From positions 1 through 55,584 of IMG/VR virus record IMGVR_UViG_3300012985_000002: a stretch of 55,584 nucleotides of DNA; one strand, 5' to 3'. Source of the DNA: a virus. Shown here one piece after another: positions 748 to 35,180 of this stretch. The position numbers and the translations under genes were made by a program. Below the pieces are notes generated by a model. The model did not search any database and was not told the origin of the DNA. It saw only the letters and a list, made by a program, of their open reading frames with translations. Numbering within the stretch: position 1 is the first letter of the stretch; every line of letters begins with the position of its first letter.

Positions 748-776
748 TTGTTACTAGCTAGTCATGTTCATAATAC
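748..776 (+). promoter_or_regulatory. Candidate promoter upstream of structured RNA
   Basis: TTGTTA (748-753) is followed after 17 bp by TAATAC (771-776). An alternative -10, CATAAT, lies at 769-774 with a 15-bp spacer. The segment is AT-rich compared with the genome. A start near 783 would lie just before the 10-bp closing stem of the candidate RNA at 791. Motif matches are partial, so this is tentative. Confidence 0.35.
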
Positions 777-782
777 ATAAAT

Positions 783-920
783 TGTTTTGAGCTCAGCACT
801 ATAGACTTACTCGTCTACTGGTGGGTGACCACGTCTGGTTCCCAGACGCAAGCGCCAGTAGCTAGAATAAGTCAGTTGATAGGTCAGGTCTGTCGTCATA
901 GACTAAGTGCTGAGCCATTA
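783..920 (+). ncRNA. Candidate structured non-coding RNA
   Basis: A perfect 10-bp stem joins 791-800 to 906-915. Inside it are gactta/taagtc (804-809 with 868-873), ctactgg/ccagtag (815-821 with 855-861), cgtctgg/ccagacg (832-838 with 842-848, loop ttc) and a short gtct/agac stem (888-891 with 900-903). No coding frame is credible. A promoter-like element precedes it and a strong hairpin follows at 941-980, giving a plausible stand-alone RNA gene. It does not fit a tRNA: there is no T-arm or anticodon arm geometry. The outer stem would also form on the minus strand, so orientation is inferred from the promoter. Confidence 0.45.
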
Positions 921-940
921 CATTAAAAAGAAAAAGTGAA

Positions 941-980
941 CATGACTAGGAACCCGTTCCCCTACGGGTCCCTAGCCATG
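941..980 (-). terminator. Rho-independent terminator of the small leftward gene
   Basis: A 17-position stem (941-957 with 964-980) has only two mismatches and a 6-nt loop. On the minus strand it is followed by a T-rich tract (reverse of 921-940). It begins 7 bases beyond the stop of the leftward gene at 987-1226. The hairpin alone could also stop rightward transcripts of the candidate RNA. Confidence 0.8.
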
Positions 981-986
981 TGGTTG

Positions 987-1793: not shown

Positions 1794-4700
1794 GTGGCTT
1801 GGACTGATGAGGTCGCCGACAAGGACCCCTTCAACTACGCGCCGAAGGGTCTCAAGCAGACTCGCGAGCTCGCGTGGGCTGATGGTGCTGCGAGCCTGGA
1901 CCCTGGACTGCGGGTCGGCTGGCAGACGGGTGGACGTGTCGGCGGTACGGAGAACGCGTTCAACGACGAGTTCTTCACTCGGATGTACGACCAGTACGAC
2001 GAGGAACAGCAGAAGATCCAGGACAACCCGGACTATGTCTCCGACCTGTTCCTCCGCCCTGACTTCACCGGCATCGTCGGCTGGAACCAGACGTTCGCGA
2101 AAGACGGCTACTTCAAGGGTAACGCCCAGCTCAGCGAGGGCGACCGCCAGTTCAAGGTCGGCGATGTCTACGACAACGGTGTCTTCCAGGGCAACGTGTA
2201 CGATCGGGACTCCGGCTTCACGCGGGAAGAGGCGAATGCCTACGTCGCCCCGCACATCTTCGGCAAGGACGCCGCTGACAAGTATCGCGAGGCCGACGGC
2301 GACCAGGACAAGCTCTATGAGATGATCCAGGAGCAGGGTGCCAAGGAAGGTAAGCTGGTCGAGGCTTACGTCACCCGCGCGCCCTACCAGCAGTCCGTCA
2401 ACAAGCTGCTGAGCGACTGGGAAGGTGGAGCCTGGGACGAGTTCCTGATCCCGGTCGCGGGCTTCGCTGGCGGTGCGGCTGCTGGTGCTGCGTTCGGCTG
2501 GCCGGGTGCGATCGTCGGTGGCATCGCGGGTGCTGTCGGCAGTCTCGCGAACGTCGATGAGGCCCGCACCATGGCGGCTCAGGCGTTCGTCAGCACCGGC
2601 CTCATGGCTGAGGAAGGCACCGACGCTCAGATCGCGCACCTGACGGCCAAGGCAGGTGAGTTCGGCGTCAGCCGCATGAACGTCCTGACCAACCTGACCG
2701 CTGGTGCCGTCGATGTCTTCTCCGGCAACTGGGGCGACGACCTCTCTGAGATCCGCGAGGCGCAGGCTGCTGGTAACTGGGGCGCGGACGTCGCCCTCGG
2801 GGTCACCGGGTTCGTGGACGGCATGCTCATGTCGTCCAACAAGGCCGCTGTTGCTGCCTACACTGCCTCGATGGGCGGCTCTGCCCTCGGCAACGCCTAC
2901 AACAAGGCCACGAACGACGGGGAGTGGGATGAAGTCACAGGCTCCTTCCACAAGTACGAGAGCATGGAGCAGCGACTTGCTGCAGCTGGTGCTTCCGCGA
3001 TCGACATCAGCCAGATGCTCATGCCCAGTCTGCTCCGATACTCCGCTAGCCGGAACGTCGGTGGGACGAAGAACAGTGCACTGGACGACCTGGCCCCTCG
3101 CAACCCCGACGCCGTCCGCACCACCACCACGATGGACCGCACCTTCGACGTCAAGATGGGAGCAGACGGTGTCGTGCGCGCAGAGCGAGAGTCTCTCGCT
3201 CAGACTATCACCGCCTGGATGGTCCCCAGCACCGCTATCAATCGTCTGGCGGTACGTGGATCGGCCTATGCAGACGTGCTCCGACGGGGTGGCAGCTCTG
3301 TCACCGCGGACGATCTGTATCAGGCGGCGGTGCGCATGGAACGCGCCACAGTACCCTGGAAGCTTGCCCTCGTCAACGGCTTCGGCGAGGCCACTGAAGA
3401 AGTCCTCCAGACGTACCTGAACGGTGCGGCAACTGGTTGGGCTGCTCAGCCGCAGGAGCTCCTGAACGCTGCCGTCGCAGGCTTCGCGATGGGCGCGGGT
3501 ATGAGTGTCGGCTCCAGGGTCGGCACGTTCTCCGCCGACGAGCGCGCCAGGTACCGCGCCAACACCCTCCTGCTGAACGACGGACAGCAGCCCTTCAGCC
3601 GCACGGAGTGGAAAGCTGTCGACCCCGCCACGAAGCGCATGCTGTCGACCGCCAACCAGACCACGGAGCGTCGCCTCCGTCGTCAGCGCGAAGACTACAT
3701 GGACGACACGACGCAGCAGCTCGTGAGCTCTGTCGTCGCGGCGTATCAGAAGGAAGACGCCCTCAAGACGATCCTCAAGAAGCAGCAGCTCACTCCCGGC
3801 GAGTGGGAAGACGCTCTCGAGGACATGGCCGACATCCTGCCGTTCAACGACGTGCGGATGCCCAGCTACATGATCTTCCACTCCGCGAAGACCACGCTGG
3901 CCAAGCTGAACAACCGCCTGAGCGCTCTGAGCCAGCAGCTCATCGAAGAGGACACCGACCAGCAGCAGGACCAGAACGTGCAGGGCGTCCACGACACCCT
4001 CGCCGGGCTGATGACCGAGCTCAACGGCCTCTACGAAGAGTACGTGCGTACCAACGGCACGGACCCGCTCGCGCGCATCAACCGTCTCCTGCAGGACTAC
4101 TGGGACGGCACTGCTCAGGTCGACGCACCCAGCATCCTGCAGCAGCAGGCGGTGGAGCTCATCTTCTCCCGCCTCCCGAACGACAACCCCGGCTCGTTCC
4201 AGATGCTTCTGCCTCAGATCGACTTCGAGATGGAGGCCAACAACGCTCACGGGATGAGCAAGGTCTCCCAGTCGTTCGAGAAGCTGCTCAGCCACGACAA
4301 CGACGGCGACAAGCTCAAGCACATGGCGCGGTATGTCCCGAACCGGGGCGCTCGCGAGCAGCTCCGCCTGGGCATGAACCACTGGGCACCCGTCGAGGGC
4401 GTCGAGGAAGCGGGTACCCGTGGCGGCGGCTTCCTGAACGTCGCCAAGCGTGGCTACGAGGACGCGATCCTCATGCTGCAGCAGTTCACGCTGGCCGGGT
4501 TCGACGTCGACGCGCAGAAGGAAGTGCGCAACACGTACGACGCCCTGGTCAAGGACCTCAAGCAGTCTCTGCCCGGCGTGCGCTCCAGCACGTTCACGAA
4601 CTTCCGCAACATGCTGGAGAAGAACCCGGACGGCGCGAAGCAGGAGTTCTACCGCGCCCTCGCGCTCGACTACTCCAAGCTCATCAGCCTCGGTCGCTCG

Positions 4701-7700
4701 GGTACCAAGCCCGAGTACGTCAAGAACAACTCGCTCAAGCCTGAGCAGATCGTCAAGCCCGGTACCTCCATCGGCATCTGGATCGAAGACAAGATCCAGC
4801 AGCACCTGGAGGTCTGGCGCGACGCCCACGCGACCCGTGAGACGGCAGAGTTCGTCAAGAGCGGCACGAAGGGTGCACAGCCCCAGGGCCTGCAGGCGGG
4901 TACCCCCAGCACGGTAGAGACGGCAGCTGCAACCCTCGGTCAGACCAACGAGCAGCGCTCTGGTGGCTCCGACCCGTTCCGCTCGATGGGTGGCCTGCAG
5001 TACGGCCCCATCAACTCGGTCGCTCGGGACGCTGACGGTCGGCACAACCCCTCCGAGCTCCGCCAGGCGATCATCGAGTGGTACACCAACCTCACCCGCC
5101 TCCGCCCGTACAGCGCTCTCACCACGCTGCGTCAGGGCGGCTCGCCCGTCGTTCGTGAGGCTCGGGCTGACCTGGAGAACCTGGCGTACCAGAAGTACCC
5201 CGACCTGATGAAGAACCCGGCGACGAGGGATGAGACCCTCATTCGCCTGGCCAACTCCCCGTTCTGGAACGTGGACGAGAGCCAGGTCGACACGTTCGAC
5301 TTCCAGGTCCACGACGCCTCTGCCACGATCGGCTCGGTGCTCATCAAGGCTGCTGCTGCTCGTCAGGCGGCGCTGGCTCCCGTCGCGTTCGGTGAGCTCG
5401 ACGCCAACGAGGCATACGCCACTGTTACTCCCGCGCGCGCGATGCAGCTGCTCAACGGTGCAGTCACTCCGAGCACGGTGCTCCCGAAGGAGCAGGCAGA
5501 CCAGCTCGGCGCGTTCTCGTCCCTCGACTCGCTCATCCGTGACTACACGATGATCCAGAGCCGTCAGCAGCGCTCTGACTGGCGCGCTCGGGCAGAGCTC
5601 CACAGCGCGTACACCGAGCTCAACGCCGTGGGCGAGCCCTCGCTCTACCGTCTGCTGGTGGACACCATCCGTGAGGCGAGCGACAAGGAACTCAGCCACG
5701 CTGCTGACGGCACGGCACAGGGTCGTCTCGCCCGTGAGGACAAGACGTTCCACGAGAAGCACGTGCTGCCGATCTTCCAGAACCTCGCGCACATGATGGA
5801 CACGCTCGGGCTCAGGGGCCTGAGCCGCCAGGGGATCATCAACACCCTGGAGAATAACAGCCGTGTTCTCCAGAACGTGCTGAGCATGTTCCCCGCCGAG
5901 ATGCAGCTCGCGATCCTGAAGGCCCCGAACCCGAAGGCCAGTCCTCGCGACTTCGCCATTCCCGGCTGGTTCTTCGACATGCTGCTCGAAGAGAACGCCG
6001 AGAAGGCCGCGTTCATCTACTGGGACGCCATGCTCCAGATGGACCTGGACATGTACGGCAAGGATGCACACCCCGGCAACGCGTGGGTGCAGCTGTACTC
6101 GACCCTCGACGCCGCTGGCAAGCAGACCCTGGACGACATGCGAGCCACGGCGACCTCGGTTCAGCAGTTCGTGGACGAGGTCAACCGCGAGATCACGTTC
6201 AACCAGGCCCCGCTCCTGGCCTGGCGCACGGACACCACGCTCTACTCGCCCGACTCCACCAAGAGTGGCTGGCAGTGGAGCGCGCCGTCGGCAGAGCGTC
6301 GTCAGGCGATCCGTGACGCGGCCAAGTACTTCAAGGAGAACGCTCAGGCGCTCCCGTCCGAGGTCGAACTCCAGGCCCGTAACCTCGGCTACGCGACCGA
6401 CCTGCTGAACGCTCTGCAGAAGCCCGACACGTACAAGAGCGCTCAGCTCAGTGACGCGATCAAGGCTCTGGACAACCGTCTGAAGCAGAGTGGGGTCCTT
6501 CGTCAGCCGACGATGGGTCCTCGTGGCCGTCGTGCCTTCGTGGAGCGCTCCTTCCGTGGTATCGACCCCGGCTCCGCCTCCAAGGGTGTGGCCAGCCCTG
6601 GCATCGCTCAGTACGGCGACACCGACGTTCGTCGTGACCAGACTGCTTTCGGCTCCCAGCTCGACCAGACGTTCAGCGCTCTGCTCGCCGGTGACGCCAA
6701 GAGCATCTCGTTCAACCCCCAGGCTCTGATGCAGGAACTTCGCCTGCAGACCGAGTCCGGTGCGATCATCGACTGGACTCCGCTGACCACCGAGCAGTTC
6801 CTCCAGCTGTTCATCATGGAGGACGGCGCGTACCAGAACCTGCTCTTCGCGCTGATCAACCCGTCGGTGTACGAAGAGACTGGCCCCGGTAAGGCGGTGC
6901 AGCAGTATCTCTTCCCGCAGGACCTCGAGAAGATCGTCGGCACGACGTTCTATAAGGACCTGATCAACGGTACGGGTGGTCGGAACAAGCACGAGACCAA
7001 CGAGCTCTTCCTGAGCTACGTCGACTCGCTCACCAACGGCAACCTCGTCACTCGCATGCTCGCCGACTCGGCGATCGCGCGGACCACGACAATCGAGACC
7101 CTCACCAACTCCGCCTACGAGAGCATCGTGGCTGACGTGGCGGAGGCGATTCGCTCGCTCATGGGTCTGGCCCCTGGTCAGGGTGACGCGCTCCGTGGCC
7201 TGCTGGAGACGCAGGCACTCAAGGACTACGAGCCGATCCCCGGTCTGGGACAGCTCGGCGCTCTTCCTGCTCCCGCGCGCGAGGCGCAGATCGACAACAT
7301 GATCCAGCTCTATCAGGGCGCGCTCGACGTCGCCGTGAAGAACTGGGAGGCCAACAAGACGATCGACAACGCCGACCTCGTGTACGAGGCTTCGGAGAAG
7401 CTTGGCATCGCCCAGGGTCTCAAGAACACTCGCAAGTACGGCGAGCTTCAGATGAACGCTCTCAAGATCGACTGGGACAGCCCGACCGCCCAGCGCGTGA
7501 CCAAGACGATGATCACGCAGTACATCGAGACGTTCGGCCCGTCCCTCGCCACCACCATGACGGGTGACGACGCCAAGACCCTGTCCAAGTGGAACCTGGC
7601 TCAGACCGACCACATGGACATCTTCAAGTCGTTCAGCACGGACGAAGCCGCAGACCGCAAGGTGTGGGACGAGCTCAGCAAGATCGTCGCCCTGCACCGC

Positions 7701-10700
7701 ACGCTGACGAAGAGCGGCTACCTGGCGAGTGACTCGATCGCGTCGCCGACCACGAAGGAGTGGGGTCAGTTCGACCCGACGTTCGTCTACCTGACCAAGG
7801 ACATGGTCAGCGACGAGTTTCTGAGCGTGCTCAGCAACCTCCGCAAGGCCGTCCCCGACGCCATGCCGCCTCGCAAGAGCGTGGACGCGGTCGTCACTGA
7901 CCTGAACAAGACGGTGCTCCGCCCGAAGAACTTCGGCAAGTGGGTCCCCGACCTGGTCATGCAGCACTCCGGCTCCAGCCGGTATCTGGACAGCTCGGGC
8001 TCGCCCCAGCAGATCGCGATCGGTGGCGAGCTCCTGAAGAGCATGATCGCCGCCACAATCAGCGCTCGTCGTACGAACACGCACCCCACGCCGGATATGG
8101 CGCGCGCGTACAAGATCGACGCAGAGGAACTGATCGCTAGCGAGACCGACTTCTTCGGTCGTGGTCTGCAGGGCGAGCCTTGGGCAATGCTCGAAGGCGC
8201 GTCAGTTGTTGCCCCTCGCTACAACAGCGAGACGGGCAAGACCGAGGGTGCAGGTCCTGTGCTCATCGCTCGGGACACAGCAGGCAACGTCATCAAGGAG
8301 ATCCCGCTGACGCTCGCCACCAGCCGTATCACGAACGGTGGCAAGGACCTGGAGGGTGTGCCCGGCACGATCGCTCAGATCACGCACCAGTCGATGATCG
8401 AGGCTGTCAAGACGGCCATGAGCACCTTCAAGGGCTCTGCCGTGGCAGGCTCCTACTCGTCTATCTCCGTCGAGTTCCAGATGTTCAACCCCGTCATGAA
8501 GCCTGCGATGGACCCCTCGAAGCCTGCCGATAAGCAGGTCAACTGGGCGAACAACATTCACTTCGACGGTACGCTGGGTCAGACGGACACCAGCACGAGC
8601 ATCTACGCCGCCCTGCTGGCAGGTGTGGACGGTCTCGTGCAGCGTCTGGAGCGTGCTGCTCTCGACGCGATCAAGGGCTCGCTGGCGATCTTCACGACGG
8701 CTCACCCGCGTGGCTTCGACGGCAAGGACCCGAACCAGCTGCTCGACCTGCTGTACGACATCACTGCTGACGTCATGCGTACCCCGATGGGGGAGGACTA
8801 CCTGTTCCCGAACAACGCCTACAAGGGCGTGTTCCGTCTGGTCCGTGACCGTCTGCTGGTCACTGGTCAGGACGCGGAGGGCAACAAGGTCACGCTCTCG
8901 TCCGAGCAGGCTCTGACGACCGACCTCTCGCAGTACACCGACCTCAAGGTGGTCGAGCTCAGCACCCGCTCGCTGGAGACTCTGCGTGGTGCAACGGGTG
9001 GCTCCGGTCACCCGCGCAACCTGCAGAAGGCTCCGCGAATCGGTGGTGAGGGCGAGCCGTGGAAGGGGTACTACGAGCCGTTCCAGCTGGAGCGTATGCC
9101 TCAGCTCGGCACTCAGCTCACCGACCTCAACCAGATCGCAGAGGCCCTGCGCACGTCGGGCCTGCTGGACCGTGACCGCGTGCAGACGTTCCAGTACGGC
9201 ACGCACACGGCTGACGAGCGTACCCAGCAGCACCGCAAGTTCGAAGAGTTCATCGAAGAGCGGTCGGCAATCGCCAAGGCTCGTCGCGAGCGTGGTACTC
9301 AGAAGCGCTACCGCTCCGTCAACACCGGTGTCGCGATCGCGTGGCGCAACCTGCTTCGTCAGGACCAGCGTGTGCGTCGTGCCACGACCGACGCCCTGCA
9401 GGAGGACCTCGGCGGTGTCAAGCCGAATCGCGATCTGACGATCCAGGACGCTCACCGCTCGCTGAGCAACATCCTCTCGTACGCGAACGGCAACGAGGCA
9501 CGCCTGTTCCTCGTGGACCCGAGCGATCTGCAGGCGAACGGTGACGAGGGTCGCCTCACGTCCGTCCGCAAGGACCAGGGCGAGCGCTGGAGCAACGTCC
9601 GCCCGGTCAACGACATCGTGATCCTACAGCTGGACGGCTACGAAGAGGCTCCCGGTACCCCTGAGTGGAACCGTCTCGTCGTGGACGAGCTCGCCGCCAT
9701 GAAAGAGCGCGGTCTGACCATCGGCCTCACGTCGGCCAAGGACCCGAACGCTGCCAGTATGGCCCGCGACCTGCTCCTGCAGAGCCAGGGTCCGTACGAG
9801 TCGGTGAACGATGACCTGTTCATCTTCGCCCCTGTGACTCGTGTGGACGAGGGTCGTACCCTCGCTGCCCGTCGTGCTACCCTGACGGAAGCCAAGGTGC
9901 AGAGCCTGCGCGGCTACGTGCTCGCGGCCTACTCCGAGGACGGCTTCTACGCCACTGACGCTGAGGGCGTGCAGATCGACCCGCTCAGCAAGTGGCTGGG
10001 CTACACCCAGGGCTACGCCTCGGACATCGTGCCGACCACCGGCATGAACCAGTACCACTCGCCGGGCACGCCTCAGGCTGGCCAGCGCATCGCACAGGTC
10101 TACGACTACCTGCTCAAGAACAACGGCGCGCTGTACCTCATGGAGCAGCAGGCCATGGGCGGTGGCGGTGACACGACCCTGGAAGAGTTCCAGACTCTGC
10201 TCCAGCGGGCGTACGACAACCTGGACCGTGCAACCGGTCGTCCCAAGGTGAACACCGAGTTCCGCCCTGGCGACCTCGTGGCCACGATCAACGAGATCGG
10301 GAGCCTCACGTTCACGCGCTGGGGCTACGACTCCACCGACGTGGACTTCGAGTCGCAGGACCGTAACGGCCTCGACGGCATCTCGATCGAGGGTATTCCG
10401 TCCACAAAGTCGATCCGTCTCGTGGCAGGCAAGAAGCTGCCCCATGACAAGGCATCGCTCCGTGGTGGTACGATCGAGCAGGTCTTCATCGACCCGGTCT
10501 TCGGTCTCCGCATCCTGTTCAAGAACGACATCAACCTCTACGGTGCGAAGATGGTCGATGAGCACGGAACGAAGACTCGCTCCGTGATCCTGGCCGAGAA
10601 CAAGCTCCCGTCGGTGCCGATGTTCAATGACACGCGGCCCGCCATGTACGCGGACTACCCGACGACCATCAAGAAGGGTGTCAATGCGCAAGGTACGGTA

Positions 10701-13700
10701 CTCAACGCCCGCGAAGGCATCTTCGTCTACGGCATGGACTTCCACCGCACTCTGGCCAACGCCCTCTGGTACGGCACGCCTGGCACGCCGTACTACGATG
10801 TGGACACTTGGGCTGCTCTGGACCCTGATGAGCGTGCAGGTATCTCTGCCCGCGTGGTGAACGCTCTCGAGCTCGCTCGTCTCAAGGAGACCGAGCGCAT
10901 CTCCGACAACGAGGACCTGGCGTTCTCGGTGTACAAGAGCAACCAGCTCTCCGAGACGGCTCGCGCCCTCATCGAAGAGCAGGGCGGTGCTACCCTCGGC
11001 TCGGCTCAGCTCCGCGCCAAGTACGCTGCTGCTGGTGTGAACGTCGATGAACTCCAGGTCGAGCAGCTGTACCTGTCTGCTGCCCTGCAGTACCTCAAGG
11101 GTAACGGCACGTCGGTGTATCACGTGCTCGGCTCCCCTGGTTTCGAGCAGGATGCGAACATCGAGGACCGCGAGTCGCTCAAGATGCCCGCGATTCTGAC
11201 GCAGTTCATCGACATGAACCTGCCCCTCCGCAAGTACGTGATTGGAGACGTCAATGCCCGGATGTCGTCAAACGAATACGATCCCCTCGACGGCTCCCTC
11301 GTCCAGGGCTGGCTGGTCCAGTCGGATTGGCGTGTACTCCTGCGGCGTGCCAACGGAACTAGCAATACCGTGGTCCTTCGATCGGTACGCGCTGAGGCCA
11401 CAGGTGAGGACCACAGCGAACGGTCTGAACTCAACAGTGATCTGGCTACCCACGATGTTGCCTCGAACCAGCAGCAGATGTTCGCCCGCGAGACCATCGG
11501 ACTCGATCTTGGCTACGCTCGACGCGATCCTAAGCTTTCGCGACTCCTTGAGGCAACGGCCTATTCCGAAGAGCGCGTCCGAGACCTTACGTTCGGGCGT
11601 GCCGCAGAGCGCCTGGCAGGTCGAAGCTCTGAAGAGCAGTCTTATCGGGATGAGAACAGCAGCAAGGCCCGCGGCTACCTGACCCCGATCACTCGTGAGC
11701 TCGGCACGGTCGCCGACGAGAAGGTCGTCGACCGCATGTACGACGAGGCTTACAAGCACCTGGGCCTCGTCAAGAGCGGTACCGCCAAGCGCATGGTCGA
11801 CTCGATGATCCGCATGTACTACCGTGCAGTCAGCGACCCGAACAACCCCGAGGTCGACAAGCGGAACGCGGCTCAGATGAAGGAGGCGCTGGCCTCGATC
11901 AACGCCTCGCTCGCTGCCTACCGCTGGCCGATGGACTCGTCTGCCATGCCTCTCATGCACGGTGACGTAGTGGACTACATCGCCCGCAACGGTACCTGGA
12001 CGCCAGAGAACGTCACGGTGACGGGTGACAAGCGTGCCTTCATGCTGCAGAACGCCCTGGACAACACCATGGCTTCGGCGCAGGAGGTCCCGGTCGAGGC
12101 GCAGCGTGAGATCGACGCTCTGTTCGCTACCTACGAGAAGTACTTCTCGAAGGGCTTCTGGCCCGCGTCGGCCTACCCGGCTGTCATCGAGCGTCTCGCG
12201 TCGGCAGGAGACGGTACGTTCGTGTCGTCCATCGACCCGTACCGCCAGATGCAGCTGGAGGGTGGCGACCCCTACGCTGAGTACGACGGCATCGCACCCG
12301 ACTCTGCCTACGTCGGTACGACCGGCGCTGGCACGAAGCTGGAATCCAGCCGTCGAGCATGGCGTACCCGCGAGCGCACCAAGGATCGTGGCGGCGACCA
12401 GCCCACGAACATGCTGACTCGCGCCAACCAGGGTGCTCAGTACCGCGACAAGGTCAACTATGTCGCTGGGTTCTGGCGCAACGCCCACGCTCTGCGTACC
12501 ATCACTCCTCAGCTCAACCCGTGGCTGTGGATCTGGAACCCGATCGACTTCCAGTGGCGGCGGATGCCTGCAGCAATGCAGCAGGCTGTCTCTGGTCAGG
12601 GTGTCAACTGGGCTGGCCAGCGTATCCGTGACGGTGTCCAGTTCCTCGCGGACAAGACCGAGTCCTCGCTCCTGACAATGGACCCGGAATCGCGCAAGGC
12701 TGCTGCTCTGCAGGCCTGGACGGACGCGTTCGGCGTCACCCAGCCGTGGATCACGCCCGAGGCGAACGCGTTCCTCAAGGAGACGGTCGACACGATGATG
12801 GCGAACCAGGACTTCCGGTCCGCCCTTGCCGAAGAGTCGCGCCACCACCCTGATGACGAGCTCCTGACTCGCGGTGACCGTCAGCGTCAGAAGGCAGTGG
12901 ACTGGGCGAGCCGCTCGCAGGACCTCCTGCGTGGTCTCGCGAGCCGTGCACAGGTCGAGGCTTACCTCGTCGCCCTCATGGAGAACGAGCGGATCAACAA
13001 CCCGAACGTCACTGCCATGCAGATTCTCGAGCGCCTGCACCGCAACCCTCTCGCGTTCAAGCAGATGGGTCCGTTCGACTCCCACACCAAGGGCGTCCGC
13101 ACGGTGCAGAACTTCAAGGGCGCGAAGCTGACTGCGATCGGTGCTCTGGTCGACCGCATCCTCATCCCGATGTCTGAGAGCCCCAACGCGATCCTGTCGG
13201 GACCGGCGAACACCCTGCTGCTCATGGCCAAGTTCCGCAACTTCGCCTTCTCGTCTGCAGTGCAGATGATGGGCGGGCAGGCTGTCGACGCTGCTGCGAC
13301 GATTCTCATGCAGGCTGTGGCCTTCCGCAAGCAGGCTTATCGTCGTGCGCGTGGCCTGGAGCCTGAGACGCCCAACGACTACATCTCTCGTACGATGGAG
13401 TCGGCAGACATGGCCGACCTGTTCATCAGGTCGGGTATGTCCCTCACCGGTCTCTTCTTCGCGGGCCTGGCGTTCAACGCCGCAGGTCTTACGGGTGAGA
13501 CCGAAGAAGAACGGCGGAAGCGTAGGATCGAGCTCCTGCAGGGTCTCGGTACGCTGTACGACCCCCGCGACATCGCGAACTCGTTCCTGAACGAGAACGC
13601 CGTCTGGCTGGAGGGTCTTGCGAACGGGCCTCTTGCACCGCTCGCCGCGTGGTTCCGAGTGGAGACCGGTGAGGGTCAGCCCATGCGTTCCCCTGCTCAG

Positions 13701-15248
13701 ATGCACTGGACGCTGAACTTCTTCGTGTCGCCCATCATGGGTGTCGCAGAGTTCATGCAGACCGGTGACTTCTCTGACCTCGCGGACGGCTTCTTCGGCG
13801 CGATCGGCAGCATGCCCCTCATCAACACCAACATGTTCTGGGATGCCTGGACCACGACGGAGAAGATGTACGCTGCTGCTTCCGAAGAAGCCCCCGTGGA
13901 CGTGCAGCAGGGCTCGCAGGTGACCGGTCAGCTCATCAAGGTCGCCGCCACGCTGGAGAAGATGCTGCTCGAGTTCGCGTTCGTGAACGAGCTCGCTGCT
14001 GCCTCTGACGAGTACATGCGCGACCCGTGGACAATGCCTGCAGTCAACGAGTCCGGTCAGCTCGACCGTACTGCTGACGGCCAGCCTCGTCAGACGGACG
14101 TCACCGACGAGCAGCGGGACGAAGAGGGCTTCGTCTACGAGGACGAGATTCAGCGTCCGTACAACGAGGGCCTGTGGCGGTACTACACCGGCTCGCAGCA
14201 GACGCTGGCGTTCCTGTCCTCGCTCGTGACTGGCTTCACGTCGAACAACACGGCTCAGTCGTTCTGGCGTCAGGACCAGGTGGTCGACGGTACCACGATC
14301 AAGCGTGAGGGTCTGGACATGGAGACGGCTGAGGCCGTGATCATGTCGGTCTACAACGAAGATACGGGCCAAGAGGTTCTCACCACAGAGGGCATGATCC
14401 GCCTCTTCGACTCGCTGCACGCCGGTACTGCCAAGGCTACCGACCCCGCTCTGCAGAACATCTTCATCACTGGCGACCAGCGAGCCGAGCTCAGCGACAT
14501 CATCCAGAAGAAGATCTACGTCGAGGGTGTGGAGACGCTCGGGCTGTCCGAAGACGACGCCATGCAGCGCATGTACGACATCTGGAACGGCCCGAAGAAC
14601 AACCCGTACGTCACGCCTCTGTGGCAGGTCGTGTGGAGCCAGGGCGAATTCCAGAACGAGAACGGTCTGCCGTTCAACGAGACGGTGCGCTACAACCAGC
14701 TCAACACCACTTGGGCTGTCGGCCCTGACGGTAAGATGTGGGCAACAGGTGTGGCTCGTCACAGCGTTCCCGGTCTGGCAGGAGGCGTGCTCCCGCTCAC
14801 GGGCTACCAGGGTTCGGGTGCAGGTGGCCTGCAGGGTAACCTGGGCGTGGACGAGGTTCTCAACTCGACCGACGACGTCATGGGCGTCAACACCGGCTAC
14901 CGCATGCTGACGCGTGTCAACAACAACCTGGAGATTCCCAACGAGGAAGACATCATCAAGGCGATCGAGGACTCGACCAAGCGCGTTGTCGATGAGATCA
15001 AGAACCTCGACTCCGACCTGTACAACAACCTCGACCGCTACCGTGGAGGCTACCGCTACGGTAGCGGTGGTGGAGGCTACGGCGGTGGCGGTGGATCGAA
15101 CCCGTACATGCCGTTCCTCAACGGTATGCGGACGCCGTACGCGGACAACATTCCGAACCTCTACATCAACAACATCAACCCCCGCCGCGCGAGCGTACGT
15201 CGTGAGCGGTTCTCCAGCGAGCGAGGAAGGCTGAACCAGCAGCAATGA
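1794..15248 (+). CDS. Giant virion protein, probable internal/ejection protein (4484 aa)
   Basis: One uninterrupted frame takes about 24% of the genome. Start GTG 1794 has AGAAGGAG five bases upstream. Visible features are a Gly/Ala-rich hydrophobic stretch at about residues 217-252, a GEATEEVLQ motif near 531, a second Gly/Ala membrane-like stretch at about 557-577, long helical Gln/Glu-rich regions, hydrophobic segments at about 3815-3845 and 3880-3900, and a Gly/Tyr-rich tail near 4418-4438. Membrane-like patches in a huge helical protein are typical of large polyvalent phage proteins and podovirus ejection proteins; that family link is inferred. Its stop overlaps the portal start (ATGA). 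I looked for RNA polymerase motifs as in the N4 virion polymerase and did not find an ordered set. Codon use changes at about 11240-11660. Confidence 0.85.
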   Translation: MAWTDEVADKDPFNYAPKGLKQTRELAWADGAASLDPGLRVGWQTGGRVGGTENAFNDEFFTRMYDQYDEEQQKIQDNPDYVSDLFLRPDFTGIVGWNQTFAKDGYFKGNAQLSEGDRQFKVGDVYDNGVFQGNVYDRDSGFTREEANAYVAPHIFGKDAADKYREADGDQDKLYEMIQEQGAKEGKLVEAYVTRAPYQQSVNKLLSDWEGGAWDEFLIPVAGFAGGAAAGAAFGWPGAIVGGIAGAVGSLANVDEARTMAAQAFVSTGLMAEEGTDAQIAHLTAKAGEFGVSRMNVLTNLTAGAVDVFSGNWGDDLSEIREAQAAGNWGADVALGVTGFVDGMLMSSNKAAVAAYTASMGGSALGNAYNKATNDGEWDEVTGSFHKYESMEQRLAAAGASAIDISQMLMPSLLRYSASRNVGGTKNSALDDLAPRNPDAVRTTTTMDRTFDVKMGADGVVRAERESLAQTITAWMVPSTAINRLAVRGSAYADVLRRGGSSVTADDLYQAAVRMERATVPWKLALVNGFGEATEEVLQTYLNGAATGWAAQPQELLNAAVAGFAMGAGMSVGSRVGTFSADERARYRANTLLLNDGQQPFSRTEWKAVDPATKRMLSTANQTTERRLRRQREDYMDDTTQQLVSSVVAAYQKEDALKTILKKQQLTPGEWEDALEDMADILPFNDVRMPSYMIFHSAKTTLAKLNNRLSALSQQLIEEDTDQQQDQNVQGVHDTLAGLMTELNGLYEEYVRTNGTDPLARINRLLQDYWDGTAQVDAPSILQQQAVELIFSRLPNDNPGSFQMLLPQIDFEMEANNAHGMSKVSQSFEKLLSHDNDGDKLKHMARYVPNRGAREQLRLGMNHWAPVEGVEEAGTRGGGFLNVAKRGYEDAILMLQQFTLAGFDVDAQKEVRNTYDALVKDLKQSLPGVRSSTFTNFRNMLEKNPDGAKQEFYRALALDYSKLISLGRSGTKPEYVKNNSLKPEQIVKPGTSIGIWIEDKIQQHLEVWRDAHATRETAEFVKSGTKGAQPQGLQAGTPSTVETAAATLGQTNEQRSGGSDPFRSMGGLQYGPINSVARDADGRHNPSELRQAIIEWYTNLTRLRPYSALTTLRQGGSPVVREARADLENLAYQKYPDLMKNPATRDETLIRLANSPFWNVDESQVDTFDFQVHDASATIGSVLIKAAAARQAALAPVAFGELDANEAYATVTPARAMQLLNGAVTPSTVLPKEQADQLGAFSSLDSLIRDYTMIQSRQQRSDWRARAELHSAYTELNAVGEPSLYRLLVDTIREASDKELSHAADGTAQGRLAREDKTFHEKHVLPIFQNLAHMMDTLGLRGLSRQGIINTLENNSRVLQNVLSMFPAEMQLAILKAPNPKASPRDFAIPGWFFDMLLEENAEKAAFIYWDAMLQMDLDMYGKDAHPGNAWVQLYSTLDAAGKQTLDDMRATATSVQQFVDEVNREITFNQAPLLAWRTDTTLYSPDSTKSGWQWSAPSAERRQAIRDAAKYFKENAQALPSEVELQARNLGYATDLLNALQKPDTYKSAQLSDAIKALDNRLKQSGVLRQPTMGPRGRRAFVERSFRGIDPGSASKGVASPGIAQYGDTDVRRDQTAFGSQLDQTFSALLAGDAKSISFNPQALMQELRLQTESGAIIDWTPLTTEQFLQLFIMEDGAYQNLLFALINPSVYEETGPGKAVQQYLFPQDLEKIVGTTFYKDLINGTGGRNKHETNELFLSYVDSLTNGNLVTRMLADSAIARTTTIETLTNSAYESIVADVAEAIRSLMGLAPGQGDALRGLLETQALKDYEPIPGLGQLGALPAPAREAQIDNMIQLYQGALDVAVKNWEANKTIDNADLVYEASEKLGIAQGLKNTRKYGELQMNALKIDWDSPTAQRVTKTMITQYIETFGPSLATTMTGDDAKTLSKWNLAQTDHMDIFKSFSTDEAADRKVWDELSKIVALHRTLTKSGYLASDSIASPTTKEWGQFDPTFVYLTKDMVSDEFLSVLSNLRKAVPDAMPPRKSVDAVVTDLNKTVLRPKNFGKWVPDLVMQHSGSSRYLDSSGSPQQIAIGGELLKSMIAATISARRTNTHPTPDMARAYKIDAEELIASETDFFGRGLQGEPWAMLEGASVVAPRYNSETGKTEGAGPVLIARDTAGNVIKEIPLTLATSRITNGGKDLEGVPGTIAQITHQSMIEAVKTAMSTFKGSAVAGSYSSISVEFQMFNPVMKPAMDPSKPADKQVNWANNIHFDGTLGQTDTSTSIYAALLAGVDGLVQRLERAALDAIKGSLAIFTTAHPRGFDGKDPNQLLDLLYDITADVMRTPMGEDYLFPNNAYKGVFRLVRDRLLVTGQDAEGNKVTLSSEQALTTDLSQYTDLKVVELSTRSLETLRGATGGSGHPRNLQKAPRIGGEGEPWKGYYEPFQLERMPQLGTQLTDLNQIAEALRTSGLLDRDRVQTFQYGTHTADERTQQHRKFEEFIEERSAIAKARRERGTQKRYRSVNTGVAIAWRNLLRQDQRVRRATTDALQEDLGGVKPNRDLTIQDAHRSLSNILSYANGNEARLFLVDPSDLQANGDEGRLTSVRKDQGERWSNVRPVNDIVILQLDGYEEAPGTPEWNRLVVDELAAMKERGLTIGLTSAKDPNAASMARDLLLQSQGPYESVNDDLFIFAPVTRVDEGRTLAARRATLTEAKVQSLRGYVLAAYSEDGFYATDAEGVQIDPLSKWLGYTQGYASDIVPTTGMNQYHSPGTPQAGQRIAQVYDYLLKNNGALYLMEQQAMGGGGDTTLEEFQTLLQRAYDNLDRATGRPKVNTEFRPGDLVATINEIGSLTFTRWGYDSTDVDFESQDRNGLDGISIEGIPSTKSIRLVAGKKLPHDKASLRGGTIEQVFIDPVFGLRILFKNDINLYGAKMVDEHGTKTRSVILAENKLPSVPMFNDTRPAMYADYPTTIKKGVNAQGTVLNAREGIFVYGMDFHRTLANALWYGTPGTPYYDVDTWAALDPDERAGISARVVNALELARLKETERISDNEDLAFSVYKSNQLSETARALIEEQGGATLGSAQLRAKYAAAGVNVDELQVEQLYLSAALQYLKGNGTSVYHVLGSPGFEQDANIEDRESLKMPAILTQFIDMNLPLRKYVIGDVNARMSSNEYDPLDGSLVQGWLVQSDWRVLLRRANGTSNTVVLRSVRAEATGEDHSERSELNSDLATHDVASNQQQMFARETIGLDLGYARRDPKLSRLLEATAYSEERVRDLTFGRAAERLAGRSSEEQSYRDENSSKARGYLTPITRELGTVADEKVVDRMYDEAYKHLGLVKSGTAKRMVDSMIRMYYRAVSDPNNPEVDKRNAAQMKEALASINASLAAYRWPMDSSAMPLMHGDVVDYIARNGTWTPENVTVTGDKRAFMLQNALDNTMASAQEVPVEAQREIDALFATYEKYFSKGFWPASAYPAVIERLASAGDGTFVSSIDPYRQMQLEGGDPYAEYDGIAPDSAYVGTTGAGTKLESSRRAWRTRERTKDRGGDQPTNMLTRANQGAQYRDKVNYVAGFWRNAHALRTITPQLNPWLWIWNPIDFQWRRMPAAMQQAVSGQGVNWAGQRIRDGVQFLADKTESSLLTMDPESRKAAALQAWTDAFGVTQPWITPEANAFLKETVDTMMANQDFRSALAEESRHHPDDELLTRGDRQRQKAVDWASRSQDLLRGLASRAQVEAYLVALMENERINNPNVTAMQILERLHRNPLAFKQMGPFDSHTKGVRTVQNFKGAKLTAIGALVDRILIPMSESPNAILSGPANTLLLMAKFRNFAFSSAVQMMGGQAVDAAATILMQAVAFRKQAYRRARGLEPETPNDYISRTMESADMADLFIRSGMSLTGLFFAGLAFNAAGLTGETEEERRKRRIELLQGLGTLYDPRDIANSFLNENAVWLEGLANGPLAPLAAWFRVETGEGQPMRSPAQMHWTLNFFVSPIMGVAEFMQTGDFSDLADGFFGAIGSMPLINTNMFWDAWTTTEKMYAAASEEAPVDVQQGSQVTGQLIKVAATLEKMLLEFAFVNELAAASDEYMRDPWTMPAVNESGQLDRTADGQPRQTDVTDEQRDEEGFVYEDEIQRPYNEGLWRYYTGSQQTLAFLSSLVTGFTSNNTAQSFWRQDQVVDGTTIKREGLDMETAEAVIMSVYNEDTGQEVLTTEGMIRLFDSLHAGTAKATDPALQNIFITGDQRAELSDIIQKKIYVEGVETLGLSEDDAMQRMYDIWNGPKNNPYVTPLWQVVWSQGEFQNENGLPFNETVRYNQLNTTWAVGPDGKMWATGVARHSVPGLAGGVLPLTGYQGSGAGGLQGNLGVDEVLNSTDDVMGVNTGYRMLTRVNNNLEIPNEEDIIKAIEDSTKRVVDEIKNLDSDLYNNLDRYRGGYRYGSGGGGYGGGGGSNPYMPFLNGMRTPYADNIPNLYINNINPRRASVRRERFSSERGRLNQQQ

Positions 15249-34063: not shown

Positions 34064-35180
34064 TGTCAATCCGACTGGCGACTACCACTCTGAAATCAAT
34101 CCGCTTTTTGCGGCTGCTTTCAACAAAGTTCAGGCACAGGAGGCTGCTGCGGCGGCAGGCCAGAGCGGAGAAGCGGCTGGCGCTCCTGCAGAAGGAGCTC
34201 CGGCACCAACTCCTGGTGACCAAGGAGCTGGAGCAGCTGCTGGAGATGGAGCAGCACCGGGAGACGGAACTCTCGCCGGTGCCCCCAGTGCCGGTGATCT
34301 TGCGGCAGGAACCGGAGTTCAGACTCCGGGAGCTGGAGTTCAGCCGCCTGCCTCTGGAGCCGGAGCTGGATCATCCGCTCCTGCTGGAGCTCCTGAATCT
34401 CCCGCCGCAGGAGAACTCCGAGGACACGAAGCTGCTGAAGTCACCCGAATCCTCGGAGACGCCCAGTCCGCCGCCAACGAGCGACTCGACGCCGCAATCA
34501 AGAACCAAGCTCTGAGCGAGTACCGGGACTCCATCAACCCCGAGATTCTCGAAGCGCTTCGGTTCTCGCCGACCGAGCTCGTCGGCACGGAGGTTCCGAG
34601 CATCCAGCGTGGAGCACAGCCCGGCACGAAGGTGCTCATCCGGGACGGCCAGCAGGCTCGTGACTACATCGAAGGCGCGAGCAAGCTGATCGAGCGTGGG
34701 GTCGAGGACTTGGTGGGTACCAAGAACCGCGAGCTCCAGCCACTCCGCTCTGTGATCCAGGAGTCGTTCCTGCTCTTCCAGAACAACCCCGACATCGTGG
34801 AAGGTTCCAAGACCTTCGACAAGGAGCTGGCAACGCGGTTCGCGTCCATGGCTCAGTCGTTCGCGTTCATCCACAACGGGCAGACCATCGGCTACCAGGG
34901 CAACGTCCAGCCGATGCTGAACGAACTCCGCACCAACCTCGCCAAGGAGCGCGGTGCGAGCGGTGAGCGGGTCAACGCCGCTCAGCGTGCAGAGCAGCAG
35001 CGACAGGTCGCCGCTCAGCAGCAGCGTCAGCCCAACGGTCAGTTCCAGGGTCAGCAGCCCCAGGCTGGCATTCCCTCGACACAGGGCATGTCTGCCGACA
35101 AGGGCGAGGACGACGACTACGGCGCGTTCTGGCAGGCCAGCGGTGCTGCACACCTTCGGCGGGGAGTCACCCCGCTGTAA
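34056..35180 (+). CDS. Putative scaffolding protein (374 aa)
   Basis: ATG 34056 lies inside the end of the previous gene. Residues 22-130 are almost only Ala, Gly, Pro and Glu, and the rest is helical with a Gln-rich stretch (QRQVAAQQQRQ) and an acidic DKGEDDDYG tail. Low-complexity, charged helical proteins of this size in packaging modules are often scaffolds. Codons in the Ala/Gly part are unusual for this genome (GGA, GCT, CCT instead of GGC, GCC, CCG), which links to the overlapping frame at 34063-34515. Confidence 0.55.
   Translation: MSDVNPTGDYHSEINPLFAAAFNKVQAQEAAAAAGQSGEAAGAPAEGAPAPTPGDQGAGAAAGDGAAPGDGTLAGAPSAGDLAAGTGVQTPGAGVQPPASGAGAGSSAPAGAPESPAAGELRGHEAAEVTRILGDAQSAANERLDAAIKNQALSEYRDSINPEILEALRFSPTELVGTEVPSIQRGAQPGTKVLIRDGQQARDYIEGASKLIERGVEDLVGTKNRELQPLRSVIQESFLLFQNNPDIVEGSKTFDKELATRFASMAQSFAFIHNGQTIGYQGNVQPMLNELRTNLAKERGASGERVNAAQRAEQQRQVAAQQQRQPNGQFQGQQPQAGIPSTQGMSADKGEDDDYGAFWQASGAAHLRRGVTPL
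34063..34515 (+). CDS. Possible overlapping gene in +1 frame (150 aa)
   Basis: An ATG that shares bases with the stop of the 33425 gene (tgATG) opens a 150-codon frame nested in the putative scaffold gene. Its product is basic and helical at first (LLRRQARAEKRLALLQKEL), then Leu/Glu-rich, then Pro/Ser-rich. In this frame third positions are GC-rich as in real genes here, while the scaffold frame is atypical. No separate ribosome binding site is visible beyond coupling. It may be a by-product of Ala-Gly codon repetition. Confidence 0.25.
   Translation: MSIRLATTTLKSIRFLRLLSTKFRHRRLLRRQARAEKRLALLQKELRHQLLVTKELEQLLEMEQHRETELSPVPPVPVILRQEPEFRLRELEFSRLPLEPELDHPLLLELLNLPPQENSEDTKLLKSPESSETPSPPPTSDSTPQSRTKL

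Follow-up and report, generated by a model that had tools for sequence, protein, structure and literature searches.

Genes and hairpins around the element

The DNA analysed here (the window) is the whole of an IMG/VR virus record of 55,584 bases whose relatives are phages of soil bacteria, namely the Microbacterium podophages of cluster EK (Akonivirus and Tinytimothyvirus), Burrovirus and the Arthrobacter phage MissAmericana. The genes of a leftward arm run from 55497 down to 37572 and include a primase, a helicase, DNA polymerase A and an exonuclease, and a rightward arm starting at 1794 comprises a giant gene (1794-15248, 13.4 kb, encoding 4,484 aa) and virion genes. Between the leftward arm and the giant gene lies the structured element that is the subject of this analysis (791-915), beside a small convergent gene of 87 aa on the minus strand (987-1250).

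No Pfam match was found for the giant protein, whose best-conserved stretch across four lineages is C-terminal (about residues 3880-4442) and which is labelled a tape measure protein in the MissAmericana record. The available text of PMC7302621 places the gene among the largest phage genes known and describes the protein of cluster EK and Burro as virion-associated. Ahead of the giant gene, a non-coding block (1450-1551) retains about 74-83% identity even to Burrovirus and Tinytimothyvirus phages and is possibly a late promoter or leader.

The intergenic region on the other side of the element (1-760), like the same region in relatives, carries many short perfect hairpins with loops of 3-5 bases. 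Across eight relatives, 5 to 16 such hairpins were counted per region, compared with 0.8 to 1.4 in shuffled sequences, and in several of them the stems vary while the loops repeat (CATG-CGAGA-CATG, or AGCC/TGCC loops). Because of this richness in hairpins, an N4-like virion polymerase with hairpin promoters was considered. It was neither adopted nor rejected: a motif scan and Pfam revealed no RNA polymerase signature in the giant protein, and the most conserved part of that protein is its C terminus; the available text of PMC7302621 likewise states no similarity to N4 polymerases.

The small convergent gene occupies the equivalent place in the loci examined and its protein is diverse, as if exchanged: identity to the protein of the window is 49% in the closest IMG/VR contig and 15-31% in nine relatives. 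Proteins as dissimilar as the latter argue that the element is not a by-product of the small gene and serves something more general, and the poor conservation led us to reject the small protein as an RNA partner, at least as a general rule. Between this gene and the element stands a terminator-like hairpin (940-981, minus strand), which the first-pass annotation had placed at 941-980 as one hairpin of 17 positions. A hairpin does exist there, as 5+5+6 bp with interruptions, but the U-rich run that follows it lies on the minus strand (8 of 12 positions in the window). By simple count, 18 of 25 representatives have a U-rich tail on the minus strand, A-rich on the side of the element, and two have one on the plus strand. 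On this evidence the hairpin probably terminates transcription of the small convergent gene and not that of a plus-strand RNA.

Fold of the element and its conservation

For 780-930, the folding energy of the plus strand is -60.6 kcal/mol, with a z of -6.8, and the minus strand gives a z of -5.2, with none of 200 shuffles as stable in either case. Protein coding was ruled out for 781-930, as stops occur in all six frames and no ORF of at least 60 aa covers the region, which agrees with the earlier remark that no reading frame explains it. The 10-bp closing stem, the three nested stems and the side stem described in the first-pass annotation are all present in the fold of the window. The closing stem, P1, joins GCTCAGCACT (791-800) to AGTGCTGAGC (906-915), and this pairing is kept in relatives. 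Nested within it are stems 804-809/868-873, 815-823/853-861 and 832-838/842-848. The first two fall in the P2 region, which has a 5' side at 804-823 (804-809, 811-812 and 815-823 in the window's fold) and a 3' side at 853-873 that contains a conserved CTAG. The register of P2 varies among relatives; stem 815-823/853-861 is the window's own, and relatives pair that part otherwise. The third stem is the P3 hairpin (CGTCTGG-TTC-CCAGACG, 832-848). It is overlapped by a GCAAGCG motif (848-854), the first G of which is the last base of P3 and the rest of which follows directly; the motif is invariant in all 25 aligned copies and is paired in some lineages only. The side stem GGTCTGT/ATAGACT (887-893/898-904) belongs to the plus-strand fold of the window.

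An outer stem absent from the first-pass annotation, P0, widens the element. Its arms (758-771 and 936-949) form 14 bp in the fold of 745-990, including 13 exact Watson-Crick pairs, a number reached by none of 200 shuffles, and its 3' arm shares bases with the 5' arm of the terminator-like hairpin. Counted from P1 to P1', the element is about 125 nt long; P0 extends it to about 190 nt.

Searches were run with one element of each type and returned 27, 23 and 11 phage records. Compared by name, their union is the same set of 58 records that carry the giant gene, with none outside it (58 of 58), and the element itself was read in 26 of these. It is also present in IMG/VR relatives, on contigs reached via the giant protein or the core pattern. 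Altogether 36 copies were collected, of which 25 representatives were used in most tests; near-identical copies and one copy cut by a contig end (L043) were left out, the latter being included in the P3 count only, which thus covers 26 copies. In every locus that extends to the giant gene, the element lies upstream of that gene in one orientation. The distance from P1 to P1' is 122-130 nt in 24 of the 25 representatives and 109 nt in the remaining one (L029), and the overall shape is common to the whole phage group although most letters differ. Genome scans gave no relative of the giant protein's N terminus, and the EK-type pattern, the only one scanned, had no core match there; one Burro-type copy had no plasmid match. 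Small genes annotated across the element, Stormbreaker gene 30 (L037:1378-1470) and LilyLou gene 31, are probably spurious.

The pairing of P1 was assessed in the 25 representatives at fixed flank positions, against 200 dinucleotide shuffles each. The native flanks beat all shuffles in 22 representatives and were matched by 1 of 200 in one more; the result was weaker in Akoni (7 of 200) and failed in L029 (152 of 200), in which the 3' arm falls beyond the fixed window. In 21 of the 25, no other lineage's 3' flank pairs equally well. Arms were also dealt anew among lineages. These arms had been selected manually by reference to the fold, a procedure biased towards pairing, unlike the test at fixed positions. 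Among the 25 representatives, the Watson-Crick fraction was 0.994 for P1a, from which the bulge is excluded, against at most 0.531 with dealt 3' arms, and 0.861 for P1b against at most 0.512. All four pair types occur in each of the seven columns of P1a. P3 is fully Watson-Crick paired in all 26 copies (1.000, against at most 0.725 when dealt), and six of its seven columns contain at least two pair types. In P1, a single base bulges out on the 3' side in several lineages, and an oriented C.A mismatch recurs in Burro-like copies.

For P0, no more than 1 of 200 shuffles was as good in the window and in 10 of the 13 copies of Burro-like type, and P0 is not better than shuffles in EK1 or EK2 copies; with wide flanks the test is weak (mean z -1.75). 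In a first swap control for P1 and P0, superseded by the tests above because it had close relatives mixed in and over-wide flanks, 15.6% of the swapped pairs scored as high as the native median. Judged by comparison among copies, P1 and P3 are the best supported stems, joined by P0 in the window and the Burro-like copies, and the compensatory changes in these stems point to a structured element under selection. Pairing is clearly kept by such changes in P1 and P3, so that the first-pass annotation's reading survives the refutation it had itself proposed, a lack of compensatory conservation in the stems. That the shape was kept while most letters changed suggests that the shape itself is maintained for some job.

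RNAalifold reported only 3 pairs on a MAFFT alignment, a result of MAFFT misplacing stems that differ in length. When a covariance model built on Burro-like cores was applied to held-out loci, four EK-type loci from 13 sources were listed at E values of 4-7 and the copy in the window was absent from the list; a sequence-only model of the same cores found nothing. The kinship of the EK and Burro types thus rests on place, length, layout and a short core.

No known family accounts for the element. Rfam 15 gave no match at the gathering cut-off in the window or in 17 relative loci, and loose Rfam searches gave weak below-cut-off matches only, none of which supports the element. A tRNA or tmRNA was also rejected: the only ARAGORN call in the window is a tRNA-Gly (CCC) at 34252-34336, in a stretch where both strands have open frames, and is possibly a false call. 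These searches bear out the earlier statement that the element is neither a tRNA nor an RNA class that could be named. Upstream of the element in KingKamren (L032:1089-1318), an Rfam miRNA family matches at 35.4 bits against a cut-off of 230; the segment is probably a long inverted repeat. No RNA is mentioned in the available text of PMC7302621 on cluster EK and Burro and no such RNA in PMC8281081, and titles and abstract openings in the open-licence literature gave no description of the element.

Active strand and active form

The conservation of place, length and stems, the last with compensatory changes, is observed. The reading that we favour, with fair but far from full confidence, is that of a structured non-coding element working as a folded RNA; the element would be transcribed and the RNA would be its active form. 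The long P0/P1 stem would then be likely to hold a core made up of P2, P3 and the invariant GCAAGCG, which might be recognised by a phage or host factor, and a variable linker of about 40 nt would close the fold. The element is part of the phage's basic biology and not an accessory function, because it is present in every relative found, whatever the adjacent protein.

The stand-alone RNA gene of the first-pass annotation thus finds partial support: the structure is conserved, but the signals assigned to it do not bear it out. The promoter-like sequence proposed at 748-776 (TTGTTA at 748-753, a spacer of 15 and CATAAT at 769-774) was equalled or beaten by 34% of shuffles, and its -10 hexamer lies partly inside the 5' arm of P0. 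No sigma70-like promoter was consistent across the 25 lineages on either strand, which counts against a folded RNA, and the hairpin at 940-981 offers no plus-strand terminator. From the first-pass annotation as a whole, the stems and the non-coding status were thus retained and the promoter was dropped. The plus strand is slightly favoured, because the element has its own slot on that strand, set off from the convergent gene by the terminator-like hairpin.

That the element acts as folded DNA, as a cruciform or a single-stranded hairpin in, for example, a replication origin or hairpin promoter, is rather unlikely but the main alternative and a serious one, with several observations on its side. 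The helices are almost purely Watson-Crick: read on the plus strand, P1 departs from this by 12 G.U and 9 A.C in 339 pairs, and P3 has neither in 182 pairs. In RNA helices, G.U usually clearly outnumbers A.C on the strand that forms the RNA, so the near absence of wobble was counted against a folded RNA, and the near equality of the two mismatches looks as if neither strand were privileged. This equality is not clean, however, because the A.C count is dominated by the single oriented C.A mismatch of Burro-like P1; the ratio of G.U to A.C is 8:0 in EK-like copies and 4:9 in the others. Folded DNA would also fit the failure to find a promoter, the abundance of short perfect hairpins in the same intergenic region and the P3 loops, whose minus-strand sequence is GNNA or GNA in many lineages. 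It is harder to reconcile with the fact that, wherever a locus reaches the giant gene, the copies share a single orientation with respect to it. GC skew has no turning point at the element and gave no signal of a replication origin.

We consider it unlikely that the element is instead a cis-acting part of a longer leftward transcript on the minus strand, concerned with, for instance, attenuation, antitermination or processing between the small gene and the left-arm genes, which run leftward from 55497. Folding is indeed stronger on the minus strand in 20 of the 25 representatives (mean z -5.14, against -4.54 on the plus strand), a result also counted against the favoured folded RNA, and the A.C mismatches conserved in P2 of EK copies and P1 of Burro-like copies become G.U on that strand. 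Two representatives (L029 and L022) nevertheless fold clearly better on the plus strand, and P1 of EK-like copies, with its eight G.U and no A.C, points the same way. Moreover, a leftward transcript would meet the terminator-like hairpin and its U-tract directly before the element.

A chance fold or the leftover of a decayed gene is very improbable: double changes keep pairing in distant lineages, the element is present in 58 of 58 records, and a chance fold was rejected on the fold z of -6.8, the P1 shuffle test and the arm-dealing test.

The folded-RNA reading is retained with its own points of weakness, which include, beside those named above, the three pairs of RNAalifold and the weak performance of the Burro-like covariance model on EK-type loci.

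Significance and comparison with known systems

The element is steadier in layout than the adjacent protein, which marks it as core biology missed by gene annotation, in podophages most of whose genes are without a function. As relatives were isolated on Microbacterium foliorum NRRL B-24224, both its expression and the need for it are directly testable. A more far-reaching proposal, which we rate as improbable, is that it represents a new class of phage RNA that serves as a component of the virion, DNA-delivery or packaging machinery in podophages with a giant protein, or else, if the wobble-free stems point to DNA, a folded DNA origin or promoter of ~200 bases. The gene for such an RNA would adjoin the giant virion gene and persist in all relatives, even as the genes around it are exchanged. 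Were the element a structural or packaging RNA, it would join the phi29 pRNA, the sole precedent known to us, as a rare second case; were it DNA, the origin or promoter would be unusual, of a kind that we know of from no double-stranded DNA phage.

The phi29-type pRNA is a non-coding structured RNA of podophages with a long stem closing its 5' and 3' ends. The element resembles it in being non-coding and structured, in its occurrence in podophages and in its long closing stem. Whereas carriers of phi29-type pRNA are small protein-primed phages, those of the element are circularly permuted phages of ~54 kb according to the available text of PMC7302621. The element further differs from such pRNAs in having no Rfam match at gathering or loose thresholds.

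The put RNAs of HK022 and similar antiterminators are stem-loop RNA elements of phage intergenic regions. The element is likewise an intergenic stem-loop structure that could, by analogy, act in cis on transcription, but it is larger and has an outer double stem. Plasmid sso, the M13 minus origin and the promoters of the N4 virion RNA polymerase are known folded-DNA sites in other replicons. Folded recognition in a non-coding region, with short-loop hairpins nearby, would be common to these and the element; unlike in the N4 case, the giant protein here has no RNA polymerase signature.

A likeness in general character is to the orphan structured-RNA motifs found by comparative genomics, such as those in PMC8040213, which are also conserved, structured and non-coding with no assigned job. 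The element is set apart from them as a separate family that has no Rfam entry and occurs, so far, only in this podophage group. On the best reading, it is a new family within an already familiar general kind, that of orphan structured elements.
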